Assembly (NCBI RefSeq): GCF_900115365.1
Contig: NZ_FOWD01000002.1
Span: 62,001 to 126,000 of the forward strand
Source of the DNA: Anaerocolumna aminovalerica
GTDB lineage: Bacteria; Bacillota; Clostridia; Lachnospirales; Lachnospiraceae
Direction of reading: 5' to 3'
Length of the DNA stretch: 64,000 nucleotides
Made by a program: the position numbers and the translations under genes. Below, piece by piece: positions 11,076 to 46,654 of the stretch. The notes below the pieces were generated by a model. The model searched no databases and was not told the DNA's origin. It saw only the letters and a list, made by a program, of their open reading frames with translations. Within the stretch, counting starts at the first letter, position 1. Each line of letters begins with the position of its first letter.

Positions 11076-11165
11076 AACCTCAATTCCGGCGCTTAGCGCC
11101 TTTTAATAATGGGTGCTCCCATTGCATTGCCACAAATCAGGGTGTGAATTATGCATTTCAATAAT
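11076..11165 (-). repeat. Dispersed hairpin/SD element, copy 1
   Basis: Read on the minus strand: a hairpin with arms gtgtgaatta/taattcacac, a degenerate middle hairpin, a GGCGCTAAGCGCC stem (11088-11100) and then GGAATTGAGG ending 5 nt before the permease ATG. The same order recurs at 17452, 19251, 32093 and 36679. Confidence 0.7.
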
Positions 11166-11170
11166 TCACA

Positions 11171-12100
11171 CTACTCCTCCCTCTTATGATACATAATCTT
11201 ATATTGGATGCCTGCTGCCACGGCAATAACCAGGAATAAGAAATATGCTATTGCTCCGGCGTATCCTACATTATTGTATCGGAATGCAGTATTATATAAA
11301 TACATTACAACGGTATTAAGAGACCCATGTGGTGCTCCGATTCCATCTGTTATTAAGAATGGAATATCAAAGATTTGAAGGCCGCCGATTAAAGAAGTAA
11401 TGGCAACATACAATAAAATGGGCTTTAATAATGGCAGTGTAATCTTACCGAATATATGCCATCTTCCGGCTCCGTCTATAGCCGCTGCTTCAAAATAGTC
11501 TTTAGAGATACCTTGAACACCGGCCATTAACATGATAAAGGAATTGCCAAACCACATCCATGCTCCAATAACAGAAACCGCAAGTTGTGCTGTTCCCGGC
11601 TGCCCAAACCAGTTAATACCGACTTTTACTAACTTTGCATCTATCAGTAGTTGATTTAATGTTCCAAATTGCCAGTCTAATAAAGCAGCAAAAAGGAAAG
11701 CAACAGAAGCAGGTGCAATCAGGTTAGGCAGATAAAATAATGCTCTGAATAGTCCAATACCTTTTATACGGTATTTTAAATCATTAAATATAATAGTAAG
11801 AAGGAATGCCAAACCTAACTGCAAAACAATATTAACACTCCAGATTTTTATGGTATTTATTAATGCACGCCAAAACATAGCATCCGATATAACTCTTTTA
11901 TAGTTGGAAATTCCCACCGGTATTGGTTCACCATACCCCTTATATTGAGTAAAACTCAAATATAGCGTTTTAAAGACCGGATAGATACTGAACATAATAA
12001 ATACAAATACAAATGGAAGTACGTATAAATACGCTATATTATTTATATTTCTTTTTCTTGTCCTAATAATATCATTACTGGGCATAACCATTCTTTTCAC
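11171..12100 (-). CDS. Carbohydrate ABC transporter permease, MalF type
   Basis: 309 residues, six membrane segments, EAA loop 'EAAAIDGAGRWHIFGKITLPLLKPILLY'. The N-terminal 'NINNIAYLYVLPFVFVFIMFSIYPVFKTLYLSF' is typical of the CUT1 permease that pairs with the MalG-type partner downstream. Located between the binding lipoprotein and the second permease. Confidence 0.92.
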   Translation of the reverse strand: MKRMVMPSNDIIRTRKRNINNIAYLYVLPFVFVFIMFSIYPVFKTLYLSFTQYKGYGEPIPVGISNYKRVISDAMFWRALINTIKIWSVNIVLQLGLAFLLTIIFNDLKYRIKGIGLFRALFYLPNLIAPASVAFLFAALLDWQFGTLNQLLIDAKLVKVGINWFGQPGTAQLAVSVIGAWMWFGNSFIMLMAGVQGISKDYFEAAAIDGAGRWHIFGKITLPLLKPILLYVAITSLIGGLQIFDIPFLITDGIGAPHGSLNTVVMYLYNTAFRYNNVGYAGAIAYFLFLVIAVAAGIQYKIMYHKREE

Positions 12101-17451: not shown

Positions 17452-17482
17452 TACCTCAATTCCAGCGCTTTAGCGCTTTTAA
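17452..17482 (-). repeat. Dispersed hairpin/SD element, short copy in gatC-gatA gap
   Basis: Only the third hairpin (AGCGCTAAAGCGCT, 17464-17477) and the GGAATTGAGG tail remain. It fills almost the whole gap between gatC stop and gatA ATG and provides the gatA ribosome site. Confidence 0.7.
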
Positions 17483-17488
17483 CTACAA

Positions 17489-19246: not shown

Positions 19247-19250
19247 AGTA

Positions 19251-19340
19251 TCCTCGATTCTGGCGTTTTAGCGCCTTTAATAATGACAGCAGCTTTGTGC
19301 TCCAGCACAAATTGCCATTGAAAAACATTATTTTTCAATC
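19251..19340 (-). repeat. Dispersed hairpin/SD element in aspS leader
   Basis: On the minus strand: hairpin A (arms ATTGAAAAA/TTTTTCAAT, 19317-19339), hairpin B region (GGCAATTTGTGC... , 19288-19315), hairpin C GGCGCTAAAACGCC (19262-19275) and AGAATCGAGG, 6 nt from the aspS ATG. It lies after the T-box terminator, inside the translated operon's 5' leader. Confidence 0.75.
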
Positions 19341-19485
19341 TTCTCCTTTCACCTGTTTCTGTGATCCTTATCCTACATTACCATCCGACAAATTGATTTT
19401 TCATAACATAATAAGTTTCTTTTATAAATCTGTCCTTGATTTCAATTCAAAAATAATTTAGGATATATACCCGAAACAAATAAAA

Positions 19486-32088: not shown

Positions 32089-32092
32089 AATA

Positions 32093-32210
32093 ACCTCAAT
32101 TCCGGCGCTTTAGCGCCTTTTAAATAATGATAGCAATCTGTGTTATGGACAAATTGCCGGTTGAAAACTTGTTTTTCAACCTGACCTAGATTTGGCGCTT
32201 TAGCGCGCCT
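32093..32210 (-). repeat. Dispersed hairpin/SD element, one full plus one partial copy
   Basis: Minus strand order: partial copy (hairpin C variant, 32193-32208), full copy with hairpin A (arms GGTTGAAAA/TTTTCAACC, 32159-32181), hairpin B (GCAATTTGT...CAGATTGC, about 32131-32157), hairpin C GGCGCTAAAGCGCC (32103-32116) and GGAATTGAGG 5 nt from the binding-protein ATG. Confidence 0.8.
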
Positions 32211-32269
32211 TAATTACCCCTGTCTTTAGCACATAGTCGCTTTAAAGCTTTAGTGCTTTCACTTAATAA

Positions 32270-36670: not shown

Positions 36671-36678
36671 AAGAAGAA

Positions 36679-36960
36679 GGTTGAAAAACAAGTTTTTCAA
36701 CCAGACAATTTGTATTGGGAACACAAATTGCTATTGTATTAAAAAGGCGCTAAAGCGCCAAAATCGAGGTTAGGTTGAAAAACAAGTTTTTCAACCAGGC
36801 AATTTGCGTTGGGAACACAAATTGCTATTGTATTAAAAAGGCGCTAAAGCGCCAGAATCGAGGTTAAGATGAAAAACAAATTAATAAAAAAAGCAATGTG
36901 CGTTGGGAACACAAATTGCTATTGTATTAAAAAGGCGCTAAAGCGCCAGAATCGAGGTTA
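36679..36960 (+). repeat. Three tandem copies of the dispersed hairpin/SD element
   Basis: Units at 36679-36772, 36773-36867 and 36868-36960. Each has hairpin A (arms GGTTGAAAAA/TTTTTCAACC; degenerate in unit 3), hairpin B (GCAATTTG.../CAAATTGC), a TATTGTATTAAAAA spacer, hairpin C GGCGCTAAAGCGCC and an AATCGAGGTTA tail. The last tail supplies GAGG 5 nt before the second trkA ATG. Confidence 0.9.
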
Positions 36961-36961
36961 A
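36869..36961 (+). other. 30-codon ORF made of repeat unit 3
   Basis: ATG at 36869 has the same GAGG-TTAAG-ATG context, supplied by unit 2, that unit 3 gives to trkA. The ORF runs through unit 3 and stops (TAA 36959-36961) 1 nt before the trkA ATG. Predicted product begins MKNKLIKKAMCVGN and is basic with three Cys. May be translated as a coupler, or be a by-product of the repeat. Confidence 0.3.
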
Positions 36962-36962
36962 G

Positions 36963-37622
36963 ATGAAAGTCATAATAATAGGTGGAGGACAAGTGGGATC
37001 CTACCTTGCTTCCTTATTAATATCAAATGGTCATGAGATAAAAGTTATTGATAACCGTGAAGACATCGTTTATAAACTGGAAAACGAATTACCAAAAGAA
37101 TCAATTATATTTGGCAGTGGCTCTGATCCTGAAATCTTAAAGCAAGCTGGCATAGAAAATGCAGATGTAGTTGCAGCCGTTTCCGGTGCTGATGAAATTA
37201 ATTTAGTAGTTTCCACTCTGGCTAAAATGGAATTTGGAGTACCACGAGTAGTTGCCAGAGTAAATAATCCTAGGAATACCTGGTTATACAATGATGGAAT
37301 GGGTGTAGACGTCTATGTAAATCAAGCAGAAATAATGTCACATCTTGTTGTAGAGGAAATGGACTTAAAGAATATGTTCACATTGTTGAAGCTTAGCCGT
37401 GGAGATTATTCCATAATCCAAATTAAAGTTGGCCAGCATGCAAAAGCAGCTAATGAATTCGTAAAAGATCTATCCATTCCAAAGGAAACCGTTATTATAG
37501 CAGTAACACGTAATGAATCCGTTATTATCCCCAAAGGAGATACACAGATATTAGTGGATGATGACATATTACTACTTACTGATGAAAAAAGCCGTGATGC
37601 ATTAAAAGAAATATTCGGGTAA
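36963..37622 (+). CDS. TrkA/KtrA-type RCK protein, second copy
   Basis: 219 residues: 'VIIIGGGQVGSYLASLLISNGHEIKVIDN' Rossmann motif, 'DADVVAAVSGADEINLVVSTLAKMEFGVPRVVARVNNPRN' (first residue N), then TrkA_C. Only moderately similar to the first copy, so the pair is an old duplication and may form a hetero-oligomeric ring. Ribosome site comes from the third repeat unit. Confidence 0.92.
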   Translation: MKVIIIGGGQVGSYLASLLISNGHEIKVIDNREDIVYKLENELPKESIIFGSGSDPEILKQAGIENADVVAAVSGADEINLVVSTLAKMEFGVPRVVARVNNPRNTWLYNDGMGVDVYVNQAEIMSHLVVEEMDLKNMFTLLKLSRGDYSIIQIKVGQHAKAANEFVKDLSIPKETVIIAVTRNESVIIPKGDTQILVDDDILLLTDEKSRDALKEIFG

Positions 37623-40496: not shown

Positions 40497-41345
40497 TTCC
40501 GCTTCTTTCAGGTTAATACCGGAATCGATTATTTCTTCTTTAGAAGCGGTTAATACCAGGTCATTCTCATGTATATTTAATTTGCCTGTAATTCTTACCT
40601 TTTGACCAAGCTTGATTTCCAGCTTATCAAGAAGAAGGATATTTACACTAATACCGCCAGTTGCATCCTGAACATAAATGGTATCAGCAAAAGCATTACC
40701 AGCTTTTGTTCCTGCTGTTATATAACCTTCTATTGTATATACTTCATCAACTTTACCTTTACGTACTTCCGCTATATGGGTGATAATAACAGGTGGAATC
40801 TTAAGACAACAGCACCTTCCGTATCCATGGAAGATAAACCGATTGCTGTAACGGTATCACCTTCATTAAGTTTGGTTGTAGGATCCACACCAGTTGAGCT
40901 TAAGATATATCCATTAATGAATACTCGGATCGGAACTCCGCTTTCATCTTCTACTATAAAGTAAGATACTGTACCCTCTACCCTTTCTACTTTGGTTACT
41001 TTGCCATGAACTTTAATTAATTTGCCGCCTGTCTTTTCATAATTGGCAGCATCTGCTGTAGTTACCAATTCCGGTTCGATCAGATTAATATTAGTATCTA
41101 TTACAGAAGCATTTATAACCATTAATTCCAGGTCGTTTTCATATTCAGCTAAGGTACCTGTAACTCTGACTTTTTGGCCTAATTTAATACCCTGTTCATT
41201 AATAGGGAAGATATCCATACCGCCTGTTGCATCCTGAATATAAATAGTATCAAAGAATGCATTGCCGGTTTCTGTACCTGCTGTTACATAGCCTTCTATA
41301 GTAAATACTTCACCTAATTTTCCTTTGCGGGCTTCTGCTATTGGT
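39600..41345 (-). repeat. Tandem OB-fold repeats of about 585 bp, nearly identical
   Basis: The pair of modules A ('TTADAANYEKTGGKLIKV' to 'SSMDTEG') and B ('ITHIAEVRKGKVDE' to 'INLKEAE') is present at about 39600-40190 and 40210-40800, with a third, more diverged B at 41070-41340 and A at 40800-41070. Long stretches are identical at base level between copies, so recombination or assembly collapse is likely here. Confidence 0.85.
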
Positions 41346-44300
41346 GTAATGGTGATTTCTTTTTTAGATTTCTGTAATGCATTTAGCATAATATTATAGT
41401 TTGAATTTTGTAAATCACCAAAGTTATCTAATTCAGCCTGCACCTCAAAATTAGACATGAATACGGAACCGCCAACAAGCAGGAAGCCTCCGCCATTTAA
41501 TTGCTCACTGGCTAATACTACCACATTACCTTTGGTTTGGGGAACATAATTTCCGTCATAATTTGTAATATTCTTGGTTTCCGTTGTTGAGTGGCCTTTT
41601 ACTAACCATTGCACTTTTCCTGATGCTACTGCTGCAGGATCAAGGATTACGGAGCAGCCTTTATACATACTGTATTTTTGACCTTCTACCACTCCATTTA
41701 AGAATTCAGATTTCATATTAAAGTTTGTAAAGTGTAATCTGTATTCCTGACCGCTATTGGTTGTAAAGTCTGTTCCTTCATCACTGTTAATTCTGGTGGT
41801 AGATCCGATACCAGCTAATAATTTGTTTATCTGGGTAGAAGCTTGTGTTCCTACTTCGCTGGATCTGTCTTCTCTGTCAGATATACCGCAGATTACTACA
41901 TTTCCGCCCTTATCTGCATAATCTTTAACCATGGCAATAAATTCATCGCTAAATGGTGAAACTACTACAGGTTTATTTTCATAGTTATAATGCCCTGACC
42001 ATCTTGCCGGCACTGATATAATCAACATACCTGCATCCGTAAGCATTTCAGGTGTTATCTTATCTGTAACCACTTGTACCTGAATCATTTCTTCCGCTGC
42101 AATTTTTACTAAATTACCCATGTTATTTGAATAATATCCATATACATAATCATTGAAATGGGTACCATCTACAATAACCTTTGTTACGATACTAGGATCT
42201 TGGAAGTCTATTTTCACAACATCTGTAAATACTTTTTCTACTCCGTCCAAAATTGCATATAACTTCACATCAATATTTACACTGCCTGCAACAGGACTGG
42301 TATATTTAATGGTAGCTTTTCCCTGACCTAAGGATGGAACAGCTTCTAAACCAGTTACTGTTTGAATCACTTTTCCATCAATAGAATACTCTAATTTATT
42401 AATTATTAAAGGCAGGGACTCATTGTTATAATAGGATGTGGTTATTTCAATTTCTTCACCTTTCATACATAGTTCTTTATTAACTTCAGATTTGGAAATA
42501 CCGCATTTTTCTACATTGCCAACCCATACAGGAGCAGTTACTGCTATATCCTTATCCGGTTGGATAATTCTAATAAAATAATAAGAATAGTTGGAAGGTA
42601 TGGTGAATTCTACAGTTTCATCATATGTTGTTACATTTTTGCTATCTACAACCATTCCACCGTTTACAACTACCTCTACCTTACCGATGGCTTCTTTATC
42701 CGGATCGCTAATATCCACAGATATGTTAACCGGTCCCTCCGTGTCACTAACGATACTTCCCATAATACTATTATTTAAGGTATAGACAATATTTAAGTTG
42801 TTATCTTCTGATGAATATACTCTTTTGTTCCGTACGGCATCATAAATTGCTTCTTCTGTTAATTCTGAAGCTAATACAACGGTTCTTGCCGTATTGGCAT
42901 CTCCCCATTTGCCTTTATGGTTATCCTGGTTGTTAGCAGGAGCTATATGCCATCCCTTATCCAAAGCACGTACATAGTACTCATAGGATGGGAAATATCC
43001 GCTTCCGCGAACAGGGCCTTCTCCATTACCAACTTCAATTAAATTAACCAGATTATCAACGCCGGGATCCCAATAGGAGAAATCACCAAAGTCACCAAAA
43101 GTTTTTCCCGGATGATTAAACATGGACATTGACTGAGGTTGGGTCTTTAATGCTTCAAAATATGTCTTTAAAGCCGTTGTGGTCTTAAATGGAGCATTAT
43201 TACGGTTTTCAAAGCCAGGTGTATTAAAAGTATTCATATGTCCAATACTTCCACCCGACCAAGTCATTTCGTATCCATAAATACCTACGAAATCATCTAC
43301 TTCTTTAGTAATGTCTGCCGCTGCTTTCTTTCCTCTATTCCATTTAGTACTCTTTCTGGCATCAGAAATATTATTGGTACCTGCAACATCCTCAAGCCAG
43401 TTAGAGTGGTCTGTAATTGCTAAAAAGTCTATGTTTTTAGCTTTCTTTGCTGCATATTCAAAGGCCTCTTCCACTTCACCGGCACCGTCGGATAAATTCG
43501 TATGGGCATGAAGCTGTCCGAAGTAAATGTTATATTCCTGTTTACCTATATAGAAACTCCAAGTATAAGTAAGTGATTTTGTATCTTTACGTGTAATGTT
43601 TATTTCAACTTTGTGGGTTCCCTCTGTAAGATTTGCAGGAGGATTATAAGTTGCTGTATATACATCTTCTGATTTGGTTAGCTCAGGGCTAATAACAGTG
43701 GAATCTAATTTCATAACTACAACCGGTGCTTCCCCTGCATTATCAAAAGTAACAATGATGGAAGGTTTAAAGTCTTCACCTGTACTGGAACCATCAGCAG
43801 GTAATACACTGAGTATCCGAGGTAAATCAACAATCGGTTTTTCCACGCTTACCTTACTTACATTAGCCGGTACCACCGTATCGGTTGCTGTAAAGTTAAG
43901 AATTAGTTTCGTGCCCGTTAGTTCCGCTGCCGGAATGGTATATTCATATTGTCCGGCTGCTTTTTCTGTTAAGATTACCTCTTTTGCTGTTACTCCATCC
44001 GCTATGTAAGATAATTTAACTTCTTTTACACCGGTACTGTCAGTAACAACTACAACTACACGATAGTCTTTTCCCTTTTGAACATCTTTCAAATTATCCG
44101 TATTTATTACAGGACCAAATTTATCAGCAGCTTTCGTGACATGAGCTTTGTCAGCTACTCTTAATTGATAATTATTAAATTGTCCAATAATTCCAATAAC
44201 ATTAATAATATCCCCTGCAACAATACCCTCTACTGCCGGTATCTTATATATATTCAATGTTTTACCTTCAGTAGATGTAATTGGAGTATCACCACTTGTA

Positions 44301-46654
44301 TTAATAGTTCCAATGGTGACTCCCTCAAAACGTACTCTCTGGGATTCTAAAGCTTCAAAACCTGCCCCGTCTAACTTATTTAAATCTGCCAGTTTGGGTT
44401 CCGGAAGAGGCTTGGTTTCTCCTACTTTAGCTGCTGACATTTTCGTAACTTCCAATAAGCCGTTGTATTCTATTAATTCACCAGTAACCGTCAGCTCTTT
44501 ACCAATTGCAACACCGGATGGCTTTGATATTCCTCCACTGAAATAAGCATCTATTCCGGCAGTATTATCCTGCATAAATACATTGTTACCGTCAATAAAT
44601 GTAACAACACCGGTTACTGTTACTTTTTTATCCGGAACCTTAGGATCGGCAAAGATAGCTCTTGCTTCTGCAATACTGGTTTTGCCATCGCCTATTGTAT
44701 AGGTAAATGTATTCGTTATACCTTGTATTCCGTCTTTCTTAGCATAAGCTTCAATAGTGGTTCTTTCGGTAATTGCAAATGGCCCTTTATATTCTGTAAG
44801 GGTTCCCCCATTTAATTTATACCAAATAGTTGCCCCTTCTGTTATACATGCTAGTGTAATTTTTGTCCCACTTGTTACTTCACCGCTGCTTGGTGCTGCT
44901 GTAACTTCTGCTACCGCAGGGCTGCTAACCCATATGATGTCAGATGGGTTAACCACTCTAAGCTGATAACCACCGGTTCCAGTTGTAGTAAACTGTGACA
45001 TTATGGCAATTATATCAACTGTATCACCCTTTTTAGCAACAGTTGGTACAGGTATCAAATAAATATTCATTGTATTAATGCCATCTGAAATCTCAGTATT
45101 ACCGCCTGAATTGATTTCTCCAAGAACAACATTGTTGATTCTGATTAATTCAGTTTCATATTCTTCTGAATTAGCCACTGCTTCTGCAAGGGTTATTACT
45201 TGTGGTTCCGGTAATACAGATGCTGCCGGACTTCCATTCAATACCGCATTATTTAATTGAAGAAGACCGTTATATGTAGATAATGAACCATAAACAACGA
45301 TTTCATCACCTTGTTTGAATGTCTGATCTGCTGCAAACCTTGCAACAATACCAGCTGTAGCATCTTGAATATATACACTCTTTCTGTCTACAAAAGTAAC
45401 AACACCTTTAACCAGATAATTTGTTCCTTCACTCCCTGCTCTGGCTGTAGCTATTGTAACTATATCGTTTTCACTTTGTATCGTATAGGTAAGTGTACCA
45501 TTATAAGTGTTTTTACCATCTGCTTCTGCTTTTACATAGATAGTAATCTGTTTATCCGTGGTATTTAAGGTAATCTTATCAGAATAAGTTACCCAAGGAT
45601 CCGTTTCACTAAATCGATAGAAAATGGAAGCTCCTTCAGTTTGACAGGAAAGGGTTATTTCCTGTGTTTCTGATATCATACTTCCACTGGCTGGATGACC
45701 TATTACCGCTGCGACGTCATTGCTGCCTGTACCGCCATCCATGGTATGGGAACCTAGATAAGTAAATGTATCTATTGGATATGTATCCCATTCACTAAAG
45801 GAAAAAATAGTGCTTCCTTTTATAATGTTTGATTTACGAACCAGGGTTTTATCTGCATAATCGTTAAGGCGGACTCCAACCTCACCGATAATATCTATCA
45901 GAACATTGTTTTTACGTAATTCCAATGCATCATCACCGTTATAATTAGCAACTGCAGAAGCCAAATGTCCTACATTCTTTATTGCCTGAACTGAACTGGA
46001 ATTATATATTACATAAGTTTTACCATTTCCCAGTATACCATTTAGATTAGCTGTATTAGTTGGTGCTGTTGCGCCATTAGCATAAAGGATAACAGAATAG
46101 CCGGATAAATTTACATCCGCGCCTGTTCCATTGTATATCTCTATTGCCTTATTATTACTGCTGCCCTCGATATACTCTGAGAAGAATAAATCTTCCGCTG
46201 CTCCCACTAACTGTTTATTGGCTGATTCTTCTTTAATAGTGTATGTAAATATAGTATTGGAACTTCTAATACTTTCATCTTCTGTGGAATAAGTGTATGC
46301 CGTAACAGTTGCACTGTCATCTTCGCTGCTTACACCGTTCTCTTCTAAAGTAAATGGTTTATCATATTCTTTTTCAGGTCCATCATTTACTTTAAAACTA
46401 ATTGCAGCACCTGTAACAGTTGCCGTAGTATCTAATTCTATGGGAGTAGAAATTGTTATTTCGCTTCCATCTGATACATTAGCGGTAATCTTGCTGTCTG
46501 TTACGGCAGCAGAAGTTTCCGTCTCCAATGTTACCGGGGAACCTTCTGCTAAAACATTTTGTGGAGTTGCAGCTGTAAATAATGTAGATAATACCATTAC
46601 TACAGCAAGAATTTGCGCAATCCACTTACGTTTCACTTTGTTCATGCTTTTCAT
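40772..46654 (-). CDS. Giant secreted multi-domain protein with LTD, OB-fold and PHP phosphoesterase domains (5' part)
   Basis: 1960 residues. Signal peptide 1-37 ('WIAQILAVVMVLSTLFTAATPQNVLAE' in part). Lamin-tail domain about 150-272 ('FFSEYIEGSSNNKAIEIYNGTG'), chitobiase-like C-terminal domains about 312-385 and 580-655, OB-fold (YhcR-like) modules between them, a PHP/CehA-type metallo-phosphoesterase about 1040-1330 ('FGQLHAHTNLSDGAGEVEEAF', 'FLAITDHSNWLED', 'NNQDNHKGKWGD'), a GATase-like region near 1540, then OB repeats. Probably a cell-surface or secreted phosphodiesterase/nuclease. Start ATG has AAGGAGG 8 nt upstream. It ends in 16 out-of-frame residues after a net 31-nt loss relative to the matching repeat. 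Confidence 0.85.
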   Translation of the reverse strand: MKSMNKVKRKWIAQILAVVMVLSTLFTAATPQNVLAEGSPVTLETETSAAVTDSKITANVSDGSEITISTPIELDTTATVTGAAISFKVNDGPEKEYDKPFTLEENGVSSEDDSATVTAYTYSTEDESIRSSNTIFTYTIKEESANKQLVGAAEDLFFSEYIEGSSNNKAIEIYNGTGADVNLSGYSVILYANGATAPTNTANLNGILGNGKTYVIYNSSSVQAIKNVGHLASAVANYNGDDALELRKNNVLIDIIGEVGVRLNDYADKTLVRKSNIIKGSTIFSFSEWDTYPIDTFTYLGSHTMDGGTGSNDVAAVIGHPASGSMISETQEITLSCQTEGASIFYRFSETDPWVTYSDKITLNTTDKQITIYVKAEADGKNTYNGTLTYTIQSENDIVTIATARAGSEGTNYLVKGVVTFVDRKSVYIQDATAGIVARFAADQTFKQGDEIVVYGSLSTYNGLLQLNNAVLNGSPAASVLPEPQVITLAEAVANSEEYETELIRINNVVLGEINSGGNTEISDGINTMNIYLIPVPTVAKKGDTVDIIAIMSQFTTTGTGGYQLRVVNPSDIIWVSSPAVAEVTAAPSSGEVTSGTKITLACITEGATIWYKLNGGTLTEYKGPFAITERTTIEAYAKKDGIQGITNTFTYTIGDGKTSIAEARAIFADPKVPDKKVTVTGVVTFIDGNNVFMQDNTAGIDAYFSGGISKPSGVAIGKELTVTGELIEYNGLLEVTKMSAAKVGETKPLPEPKLADLNKLDGAGFEALESQRVRFEGVTIGTINTSGDTPITSTEGKTLNIYKIPAVEGIVAGDIINVIGIIGQFNNYQLRVADKAHVTKAADKFGPVINTDNLKDVQKGKDYRVVVVVTDSTGVKEVKLSYIADGVTAKEVILTEKAAGQYEYTIPAAELTGTKLILNFTATDTVVPANVSKVSVEKPIVDLPRILSVLPADGSSTGEDFKPSIIVTFDNAGEAPVVVMKLDSTVISPELTKSEDVYTATYNPPANLTEGTHKVEINITRKDTKSLTYTWSFYIGKQEYNIYFGQLHAHTNLSDGAGEVEEAFEYAAKKAKNIDFLAITDHSNWLEDVAGTNNISDARKSTKWNRGKKAAADITKEVDDFVGIYGYEMTWSGGSIGHMNTFNTPGFENRNNAPFKTTTALKTYFEALKTQPQSMSMFNHPGKTFGDFGDFSYWDPGVDNLVNLIEVGNGEGPVRGSGYFPSYEYYVRALDKGWHIAPANNQDNHKGKWGDANTARTVVLASELTEEAIYDAVRNKRVYSSEDNNLNIVYTLNNSIMGSIVSDTEGPVNISVDISDPDKEAIGKVEVVVNGGMVVDSKNVTTYDETVEFTIPSNYSYYFIRIIQPDKDIAVTAPVWVGNVEKCGISKSEVNKELCMKGEEIEITTSYYNNESLPLIINKLEYSIDGKVIQTVTGLEAVPSLGQGKATIKYTSPVAGSVNIDVKLYAILDGVEKVFTDVVKIDFQDPSIVTKVIVDGTHFNDYVYGYYSNNMGNLVKIAAEEMIQVQVVTDKITPEMLTDAGMLIISVPARWSGHYNYENKPVVVSPFSDEFIAMVKDYADKGGNVVICGISDREDRSSEVGTQASTQINKLLAGIGSTTRINSDEGTDFTTNSGQEYRLHFTNFNMKSEFLNGVVEGQKYSMYKGCSVILDPAAVASGKVQWLVKGHSTTETKNITNYDGNYVPQTKGNVVVLASEQLNGGGFLLVGGSVFMSNFEVQAELDNFGDLQNSNYNIMLNALQKSKKEITITPIAEARKGKLGEVFTIEGYVTAGTETGNAFFDTIYIQDATGGMDIFPINEQGIKLGQKVRVTGTLAEYENDLELMVINASVIDTNINLIEPELVTTADAANYEKTGGKLIKVHGKVTKVERVEGTVSYFIVEDESGVPIRVFINGYILSSTGVDPTTKLNEGDTVTAIGLSSMDTEGAVVLRFHLLLSPI

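Follow-up and report, generated by a model that had tools for sequence, protein, structure and literature searches.

REP/REPIN elements are associated with RAYT transposases, and members of the IS200/IS605 group move without target duplication, carry hairpins near their ends and insert behind a preferred short sequence. SINEs are moved by LINE enzymes; their 3′ end is fixed, and some copies are shortened at the 5′ end. Functional sites may themselves be entered: integrases restore the tRNA gene into which they go, and group IIC introns insert behind terminators. Regarding genomic position, Streptococcus pneumoniae has an excess of its BOX, RUP and SPRITE repeats between convergent genes (PMC3049150).

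Small repeats are usually tolerated where they are harmless; the three-hairpin element described here goes to a highly sensitive position of the gene, and it seems to survive by replacing the site that its insertion breaks. It was encountered in a 64-kb stretch of Anaerocolumna aminovalerica DNA (64,000 nucleotides, referred to throughout as the window). We consider it highly probable that it is a non-autonomous mobile element that targets and restores Shine–Dalgarno (SD) sites, whatever the chemistry by which it is copied.

Copies in the window

Hairpin C (GGCGCTAAAGCGCC, allowing up to two mismatches) gives 11 matches at seven places in the window, against 0.09 expected, and both strands match at four of the seven; a scan with the covariance model R1 returned eight matches with E <0.03. 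Three of these form an array of head-to-tail 94-bp copies on the plus strand, ahead of a trkA-like gene (36963..37622, +). Copy 1 (36678..36771; 91.3 bits with R1) comprises hairpins A, B and C and the tail. Copy 2 (36772..36865; 96.1 bits), for which a fold was predicted, has hairpin A at 36773-36796, hairpin B at 36798-36826, hairpin C at 36840-36853 and the tail, GAATCGAGGTT, at 36855-36865. In copy 3 (36866..36959; 83 bits), hairpin A is altered and its pairing is lost, and the tail (36949-36959) stands 3 nt ahead of the trkA ATG at 36963. This third copy (36867-36962) begins AAGATGAAA, like the start of trkA, and contains an open frame of 30 codons; it resembles a mosaic of the element and a gene start.

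The other copies lie on the minus strand. A full copy (32092..32182; 96.4 bits) precedes a substrate-binding lipoprotein gene (start 32088), and directly upstream of it is an older, degenerate copy (32183..32264; 21.5 bits, E 0.023), in which hairpin C and the tail are recognisable. A second full copy (19250..19341; 92.8 bits), ahead of an aspS-like gene (start 19246), stands directly behind an older SD-like run, GAAAGGAGA. Ahead of a gatA-like gene (start 17448), there is only hairpin C with the tail (17452..17485; 29.8 bits, model positions 60-93). Finally, a permease gene (start 11072) is preceded by a hybrid copy (11076..11172; 46.8 bits): its hairpin A is of different sequence (GTGTGAATTAT/ATAATTCACAC) and, together with the middle, resembles a second SD-ended repeat family, whereas hairpin C and the tail are those of the three-hairpin element.

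The preliminary description had placed the same ordered module, A–B–C–tail, at five loci. This applies to three of them (the array from 36678, and the copies at 32092 and 19250), whereas the copy at 17452 lacks A and B, and that at 11076 has a foreign hairpin A. Its positioning of the tail just before an ATG holds throughout, GAGG standing 5 nt ahead of the ATG at all five loci, and the gene identities that it gave agree with the Pfam domains found: BPD_transp_1 (permease), amidase (GatA-like), class II tRNA synthetase (AspS-like), ABC_sub_bind (lipoprotein) and TrkA_N/TrkA_C. Three copies do not directly serve a gene, namely, the first two of the trkA array and the degenerate one at 32183-32264. 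Elsewhere, the window contains an uninterrupted open reading frame of 1960 codons (40772-46654, -).

Position relative to start codons

R1 was built from 28 seed copies, of which 19 come from the A. aminovalerica genome and were not selected for an ATG, and nine from an Anaerocolumna MAG and Lachnoclostridium phytofermentans, found with a pattern that includes the ATG. All were selected for the tail GAATNGAGG; the model pairs just four positions of hairpin C, ends at GAGGTT and includes no start codon. It finds at least 149 matches in the A. aminovalerica genome, of which 142 were read; the position counts use the 139 that score at least 28 bits, every one of them read. The seven remaining matches, and three of those read, fall below this value.

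An ATG follows the tail at exactly +3 in 111 of the 139 copies (102 with an open reading frame of at least 50 codons, nine with a shorter frame), and a further 14 have another nearby start (five with TTG or GTG at +3, nine with ATG at +2 to +7). The rest are seven upstream copies of tandem arrays and seven copies with no start nearby. GAGG is intact within the last 9 nt in 125 of the 139. As a background, NNNATG lies behind nine of the 122 GAGG[TA][TA] sites of the window, the elements themselves being counted in. Moreover, the genes behind the copies are unrelated, as had been proposed from the window alone: 106 downstream proteins (start at +3, at least 100 codons, some clipped by the end of the stretch of sequence examined) match 180 Pfam families, the commonest of which occurs in four. 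In this one genome, then, the element stands directly before a start codon at ~120 places (111 + 14 of 139), and it thereby offers a natural, replicated experiment on the exchange of ribosome-binding sites (RBSs) and on the evolution of leaders.

Related elements in other genomes

Some Lachnospiraceae carry dozens to more than 100 copies of a repeat of ~90 bases between the RBS and the start codon. R1 matches four of 200 genomes drawn from the family at E ≤1e-4, A. aminovalerica included, and 12 of 61 at E ≤0.01, 11 of these being of the same genus and several having one to three weak matches (in R1 scans of more than 40 genomes, such as these two, the filters were stricter, and the counts are lower bounds). 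By pattern search, the named carriers are the Anaerocolumna MAG and L. phytofermentans; G013 is probably this MAG, with which it agrees in contig numbers and positions. The genome of L. phytofermentans KNHs2131 has at least 94 R1 matches, 59 of those listed having E <0.01; among the best 30 of the at least 94 matches, 24 have both an ATG at +3 and an open reading frame of at least 50 codons. A map of transcription starts has been published for this species (PMC5171806), in a strain that may differ from KNHs2131.

Three genomes (G014, G010 and G012) carry an 88-90 bp version in which the order of the hairpins is the same and the sequences of B and C are different. Since its 40 full copies are 90-100% identical to their own consensus (median 97%), this version is apparently young, and we refer to it as such. 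Right ends number 61, G011 contributing two, and 59 of the 61 were read: an ATG stands at +3 in 54, and the other five have a start-like triplet no more than 8 nt away. Another genus is represented by G205, with five matches: four are near-identical 100-bp copies with an ATG at +3 (one of them short-framed), and the fifth has lost its tail. The single copy of G226 has GGGAGGATT on its left and NNNATG behind it. The architecture of three hairpins and an SD tail thus recurs in L. phytofermentans and also in another genus, where its sequence is different.

Across the four lineages followed, the copies are not placed at random relative to start codons; random placement is what, according to the preliminary description, would have refuted its proposal. 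Its reading of the element as a dispersed 5′-UTR cassette that supplies the SD is supported genome-wide by the position of the ATG in both the A. aminovalerica and the young copies.

The second repeat family, AGTGTGAATTATTGAAAAGCATAATTCACACCCTGATTTGTGGCAGTGCCACATCTGCAAGCAGATGCGGCATGCAATGGGAGCT, has seven matches in G000, 17 in G010, four in G014 and 32 in G011. Several of its copies (L303-L332) follow an SD-like run directly; the repeat has GGGAGCT as its end and occurs in arrays. A start with at least 50 codons lies within 40 nt at just seven of the 30 loci read, and at several loci, the three-hairpin element is directly behind a second-family copy. In L. phytofermentans, three copies (L333, L336 and L348) combine B, C and the tail of the three-hairpin element with a hairpin A of the second-family type (GTGTGAA...TTCACAC); hairpin A, therefore, seems to be exchangeable.

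Empty sites and the point of insertion

The proteins behind young copies were matched to their orthologs in G011, G012, G010 and G014, and 12 loci were compared. At the 10 that are readable, the host SD lies flush against the element, and NNNATG follows the element. With ^ marking the insertion point, the empty sites read GGAGGAT^AAAATG, ATAGGAGTT^AAAATG, AGAGGTT^AAAATG, GGGGAGT^AAGATG and GGGGGAAT^TATATG; in a filled site, the old SD is to the left of AGGTTG, and GAGGTT with NNNATG is on the right. The insertions at L174 and L175 are common to G014 and G012 and missing from G011. At L186 and L189, the flanks are too diverged, and the orthologs end in AGAAAAGAGGTT and a further 3 nt before the ATG; this AGAAAAGAGGTT could be an ordinary SD or the relic of a tail. 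Mobility of the cassette, initially raised as a possibility, is demonstrated by its presence and absence at orthologous sites, and the aligned sites show an insertion point between the host SD and the ATG, with the element in sense orientation and the old SD left upstream.

No target duplication is visible at the 10 readable filled/empty comparisons. The SD on one side of the element is usually not the same as that on the other, for example, GGAGGAT on the left versus GAGGTT on the right. At several loci, the filled site does not have the same 3 nt ahead of the ATG as the empty one, and the right border is, therefore, uncertain by up to 3 nt. With an SD-core definition devised for the present analysis, an SD-like run stands directly left of 39 of 45 young full copies, compared with 3-16 of 45 in six shifted control windows; for the A. 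aminovalerica full copies, the corresponding figures are 34 of 56 and 3-8 of 54-56, such that the run is absent from 22 of the 56. Against an SD-targeting element count the seven of 139 A. aminovalerica copies without a start nearby and the seven upstream tandem copies, the G205 copy that has lost its tail, the 22 full copies that lack the run, and the one young control window that reaches 16 of 45; in addition, neither an enzyme nor an autonomous copy turned up in the searches described below.

These positions could, alternatively, be the product of random insertion everywhere, with selection leaving those copies whose SD tail lands before a start codon. That selection acts on SD spacing is certain. 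However, copies in neutral places, for example between convergent genes, should then survive best, in the manner reported for the pneumococcal BOX, RUP and SPRITE repeats (PMC3049150); instead, each of the 59 young copies read has a start-like triplet no further than 8 nt away, and a host SD usually adjoins the element on the left. We hold random insertion followed by selection to be very unlikely.

Among the genes of the window, the trkA orthologs in G011 and G012, and the aspS orthologs in G011, G012 and G014, have an SD before the ATG without the element. The lipoprotein gene in G013 has the same upstream region as in A. aminovalerica, and it ends in a hairpin-C-and-tail copy followed by ATTATG, the full 32092-32182 copy being absent from this orthologous site. 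In A. aminovalerica, the old copy (32183-32264) has decayed, and the full copy stands behind the old tail, again before ATTATG. Because the copy at 32092 is behind a tail that stands before the ATG in G013, the two-genome comparison directly supports a growth of tandem arrays in which a new copy, here that at 32092, goes in behind a tail already present. Tandem units abut, AGGTTG starting right behind GAGGTT, as in the three head-to-tail copies of the trkA array; being an SD itself, the tail would be a fitting target for the next insertion. At the gatA site, the hairpin-C-and-tail copy is found in both A. aminovalerica and G013, and the G013 stem can still pair, with two G-U pairs. The left flanks of some young copies, for example L175, L239 and L172, contain a small hairpin (GTGCATCAAAATGCACAGATGGGAG, TGTGTGCTAAATCACACAGATGGGAG) ahead of the 'host' SD, which might then be a remnant of yet another kind of SD-ended element.

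An old SD retained upstream might also serve a small gene, in which a leader peptide is translated from the TTG of the element. The three trkA copies present an open frame of ~30 codons, copy 3 with an ATG and with hairpin A destroyed. Among 44 strong full copies of A. aminovalerica, 39 have a start in their first 9 nt, and the frame is open to the tail in 17 of these 39, compared with 0 and 8 of 39 for the other two frames; 35 of 40 young copies are also open, though these are near-identical. However, 22 of the 39 are interrupted, the lengths of the element fall into all three classes modulo 3, and the dispersed copies in the window break the frame. A small gene is, on this evidence, scarcely credible. 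The trkA array considered as three short peptide genes was rejected, given the broken frame of the dispersed copies.

Hairpin structure and predicted pairing of the SD

For the three A–B–C copies that were folded, the three hairpins are predicted, with z values of -5.4, -1.9 and -4.9, and the C-only copy has a z of -1.1. In alignment A1, in which hairpin A is off by one base in some rows, pairing holds in 89.2% of the helix cells (three helices), and sliding the pairs by 1-3 columns lowers this to 36-53%; as shuffling partners among the copies still leaves 88.4% paired, the figure of 89.2% says little. Double-changed cells in A1 number 11, compared with a shuffle mean of 4.1, and none of 500 shuffles reaches 11. 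For hairpin C, 52 distinct full copies have 23 such cells, whereas 1000 shuffles average 8.9 and never exceed 18; 24 C-only copies have 13 (shuffle mean 4.1, maximum 9). The shuffles ignore relatedness, so the double changes amount to support, short of proof; to that extent, it is supported that the pairing of hairpin C has been kept through double changes.

The tail itself appears to be partly paired: the predicted unpaired value for its GAGG averages 0.44 in 41 A. aminovalerica copies, 27 of which fall below 0.5, and 0.53 in 39 young copies, 20 of which do so. In the predicted best folds of the young consensus and of L178, the GGU of the tail is paired, its partner being an ACC that belongs to the region of hairpin B. 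Given this predicted pairing, some degree of SD occlusion, which the preliminary description had suggested to occur through alternative pairing, is possible in the young version; a regulatory effect of it would be conjectural.

A rival reading is a cis-regulatory RNA, be it a leader, a set of stability hairpins or a protein- or ligand-binding site, that is kept by selection on a regulon. The compensatory changes in hairpin C, C-only copies included, are consistent with this, as are the pairable stem of the gatA C-and-tail copy common to two species, and the partial pairing of the tail in the predicted folds. Set against these are the unrelated downstream genes, the near-identity of young copies that are missing at orthologous sites, the many copies that lack A and B, and a scan of the window against Rfam 15, which gave no match at the gathering score. 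Overall, we judge a selectively maintained regulatory RNA to be unlikely.

Shortened copies and the mobility machinery

By local alignment, the 142 copies read in A. aminovalerica start at positions 0-6 (65 copies), within hairpin A (19), at the start of B (9), within B (18) or in the spacer or C (31); the shortened ones among these old copies may simply have decayed. Of the 59 young copies, 40 begin right at position 0. A start at position 15 or beyond is found in 12, and in nine of these it lies at position 25 or beyond, i.e. behind hairpin A. The 12 include L250, which has a diverged but complete hairpin A, and L241, which has another hairpin there. Where left ends were taken as the starting point, 35 of 36 are closely followed by a right end, the distance being the usual one in 34 cases and 13 bp shorter in one; in the 36th, the tail is altered.

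A 3′ end that is fixed in this manner (35 of 36) and a 5′ end that varies (9 of 59 starting at position 25 or beyond) would suit RNA-templated copying from the 3′ (SD) end that sometimes stops early. So would L251 in G011, a shortened copy flush behind GGAAGGAG, the site of which is empty in G012 and G014, where it reads GGAAGGAGTTAGAATG. However, an SD-like run stands directly left of just five of the 12 young copies starting at position 15 or beyond, a count that one control window also reaches; of those 12, L250 and L241 have the hairpins noted above; and only four of 29 C-only copies in A. aminovalerica have such a run, which is the background level. RNA-templated copying, which is compatible with an SD-targeting element, is accordingly put forward only tentatively.

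Deletion of the palindromic hairpin A is a fair alternative source of the shortened copies, as five of the nine young copies starting at position 25 or beyond begin at 25-27, right after this hairpin. It would accompany the other chemistry compatible with an SD-targeting element, namely, a DNA transposase acting in trans (a single-strand HUH or an RNA-guided DEDD enzyme), with shortening by later loss of hairpin A. The lack of target duplication and of inverted repeats, and the hairpins near the ends, recall IS200/IS605 movement, and the left flank is biased, 37 of 45 young copies having T at -1. On the other side, the left neighbour varies without a fixed 4-5-mer, the IS200-like TnpA copies compared in A. 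aminovalerica have unrelated ends, and six genomes yielded no longer element with the ends of the repeat. We regard a transposase in trans as a serious possibility, held with somewhat less than even confidence.

The search for an autonomous copy covered six genomes at 2-3 mismatches (left ends occur in three, right ends in four) and found no longer element with matching ends. A comparison of 142 upstream flanks, each at most 1500 nt long, gave no long, well-conserved shared flank; apart from short stretches and the second repeat family, the greatest lengths in common, each between just two loci, are 479 nt and 230 nt, both at 66%. Y1_Tnp has 17 matches in the A. aminovalerica genome, and the ends were compared at 16 loci, most of them cut by contig ends, among which no transposase with ends matching the element was found; an IS200-type mobiliser was set aside for these 16 loci, whose ends are of other sequence. 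A search of a plasmid collection gave no match. The IS200-like Y1 transposases at L155-L169 (G000) lie at contig ends, and their left ends, where shown, mostly follow terminator-like hairpins and T-runs.

Proposed mechanism

In the scheme that we propose, the element is a non-autonomous unit of three hairpins and an SD tail, usually 85-100 bp in length, that inserts in sense between an SD and a start codon. The filled and empty sites show its 3′ end, GAGGTT, where the host SD had been, at an unchanged distance from the start. The mobility machinery would recognize an SD-like purine run. Since the new SD brought along would keep the host gene translated, the insertion would be tolerated; the element appears to invade genes without switching them off. 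A copy can also insert immediately after the tail of an earlier one, and tandem arrays are formed in this way.

A more specific form of this scheme, which we offer as no firmer than a working suggestion, is a bacterial SINE-like element: a structured RNA with a 3′ SD would be reverse-transcribed at SD sites, with SD complementarity serving in targeting or priming; it would thereby pass from one RBS to another, and the host genes would stay translatable; several families of the Lachnospiraceae would be of this kind. Whichever form applies, the element poses a clean search problem, that of a mobility machinery that recognizes SD sequences, for which L. phytofermentans is a carrier species.

Comparison with known systems

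A search of the open-licence literature found no description of an SD-targeting repeat, and the element appears to be a miniature mobile repeat whose SD target and restoration trick are undescribed there. Like BOX, RUP and SPRITE, it is small, interspersed and present in many copies; those repeats lie sometimes before genes and within operons, and BOX is modular (PMC3049150). Unlike them, the three-hairpin element carries an SD and stands at a fixed distance before start codons (ATG at +3 in 54 of 59 and 111 of 139 copies). With REP/REPIN elements (PMC3733652, PMC3116915), it shares a short, palindromic and non-autonomous character and a high copy number; it differs in having three unlike hairpins and lying at the RBS, the ends of the Y1 transposases compared are different, and its left flanks have no constant tag corresponding to the GTAG or CGTC border of REP/RAYT systems. 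Classical MITEs, as characterized in PMC3049150, are likewise non-autonomous, strongly base-paired and present in many copies. However, the ends of the element, AGGTTG... and ...GAGGTT, are not reverse complements, as terminal inverted repeats would be, and the 10 readable comparisons reveal no constant target site duplication.

The likeness to IS200/IS605 derivatives lies in the absence of target duplication, the hairpins near the ends and the preferred left sequence; here, though, the target is a loose SD, the left flanks being SD-like but variable where those derivatives have a fixed tetra- or pentanucleotide, and no TnpA with matching ends was found among the loci compared. Although the element is bacterial and shows no target duplication, it resembles SINEs in being non-autonomous, in its fixed 3′ end and in having some 5′-shortened copies (9 of 59 young copies, one of which has empty ortholog sites), a pattern that may, however, have arisen through later deletion. 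Finally, as with the integrases of tRNA genes and the group IIC introns, the target is a functional site that appears to stay in working order; what sets the three-hairpin element apart from these is that the site restored is an RBS, and that it is restored at many genes.
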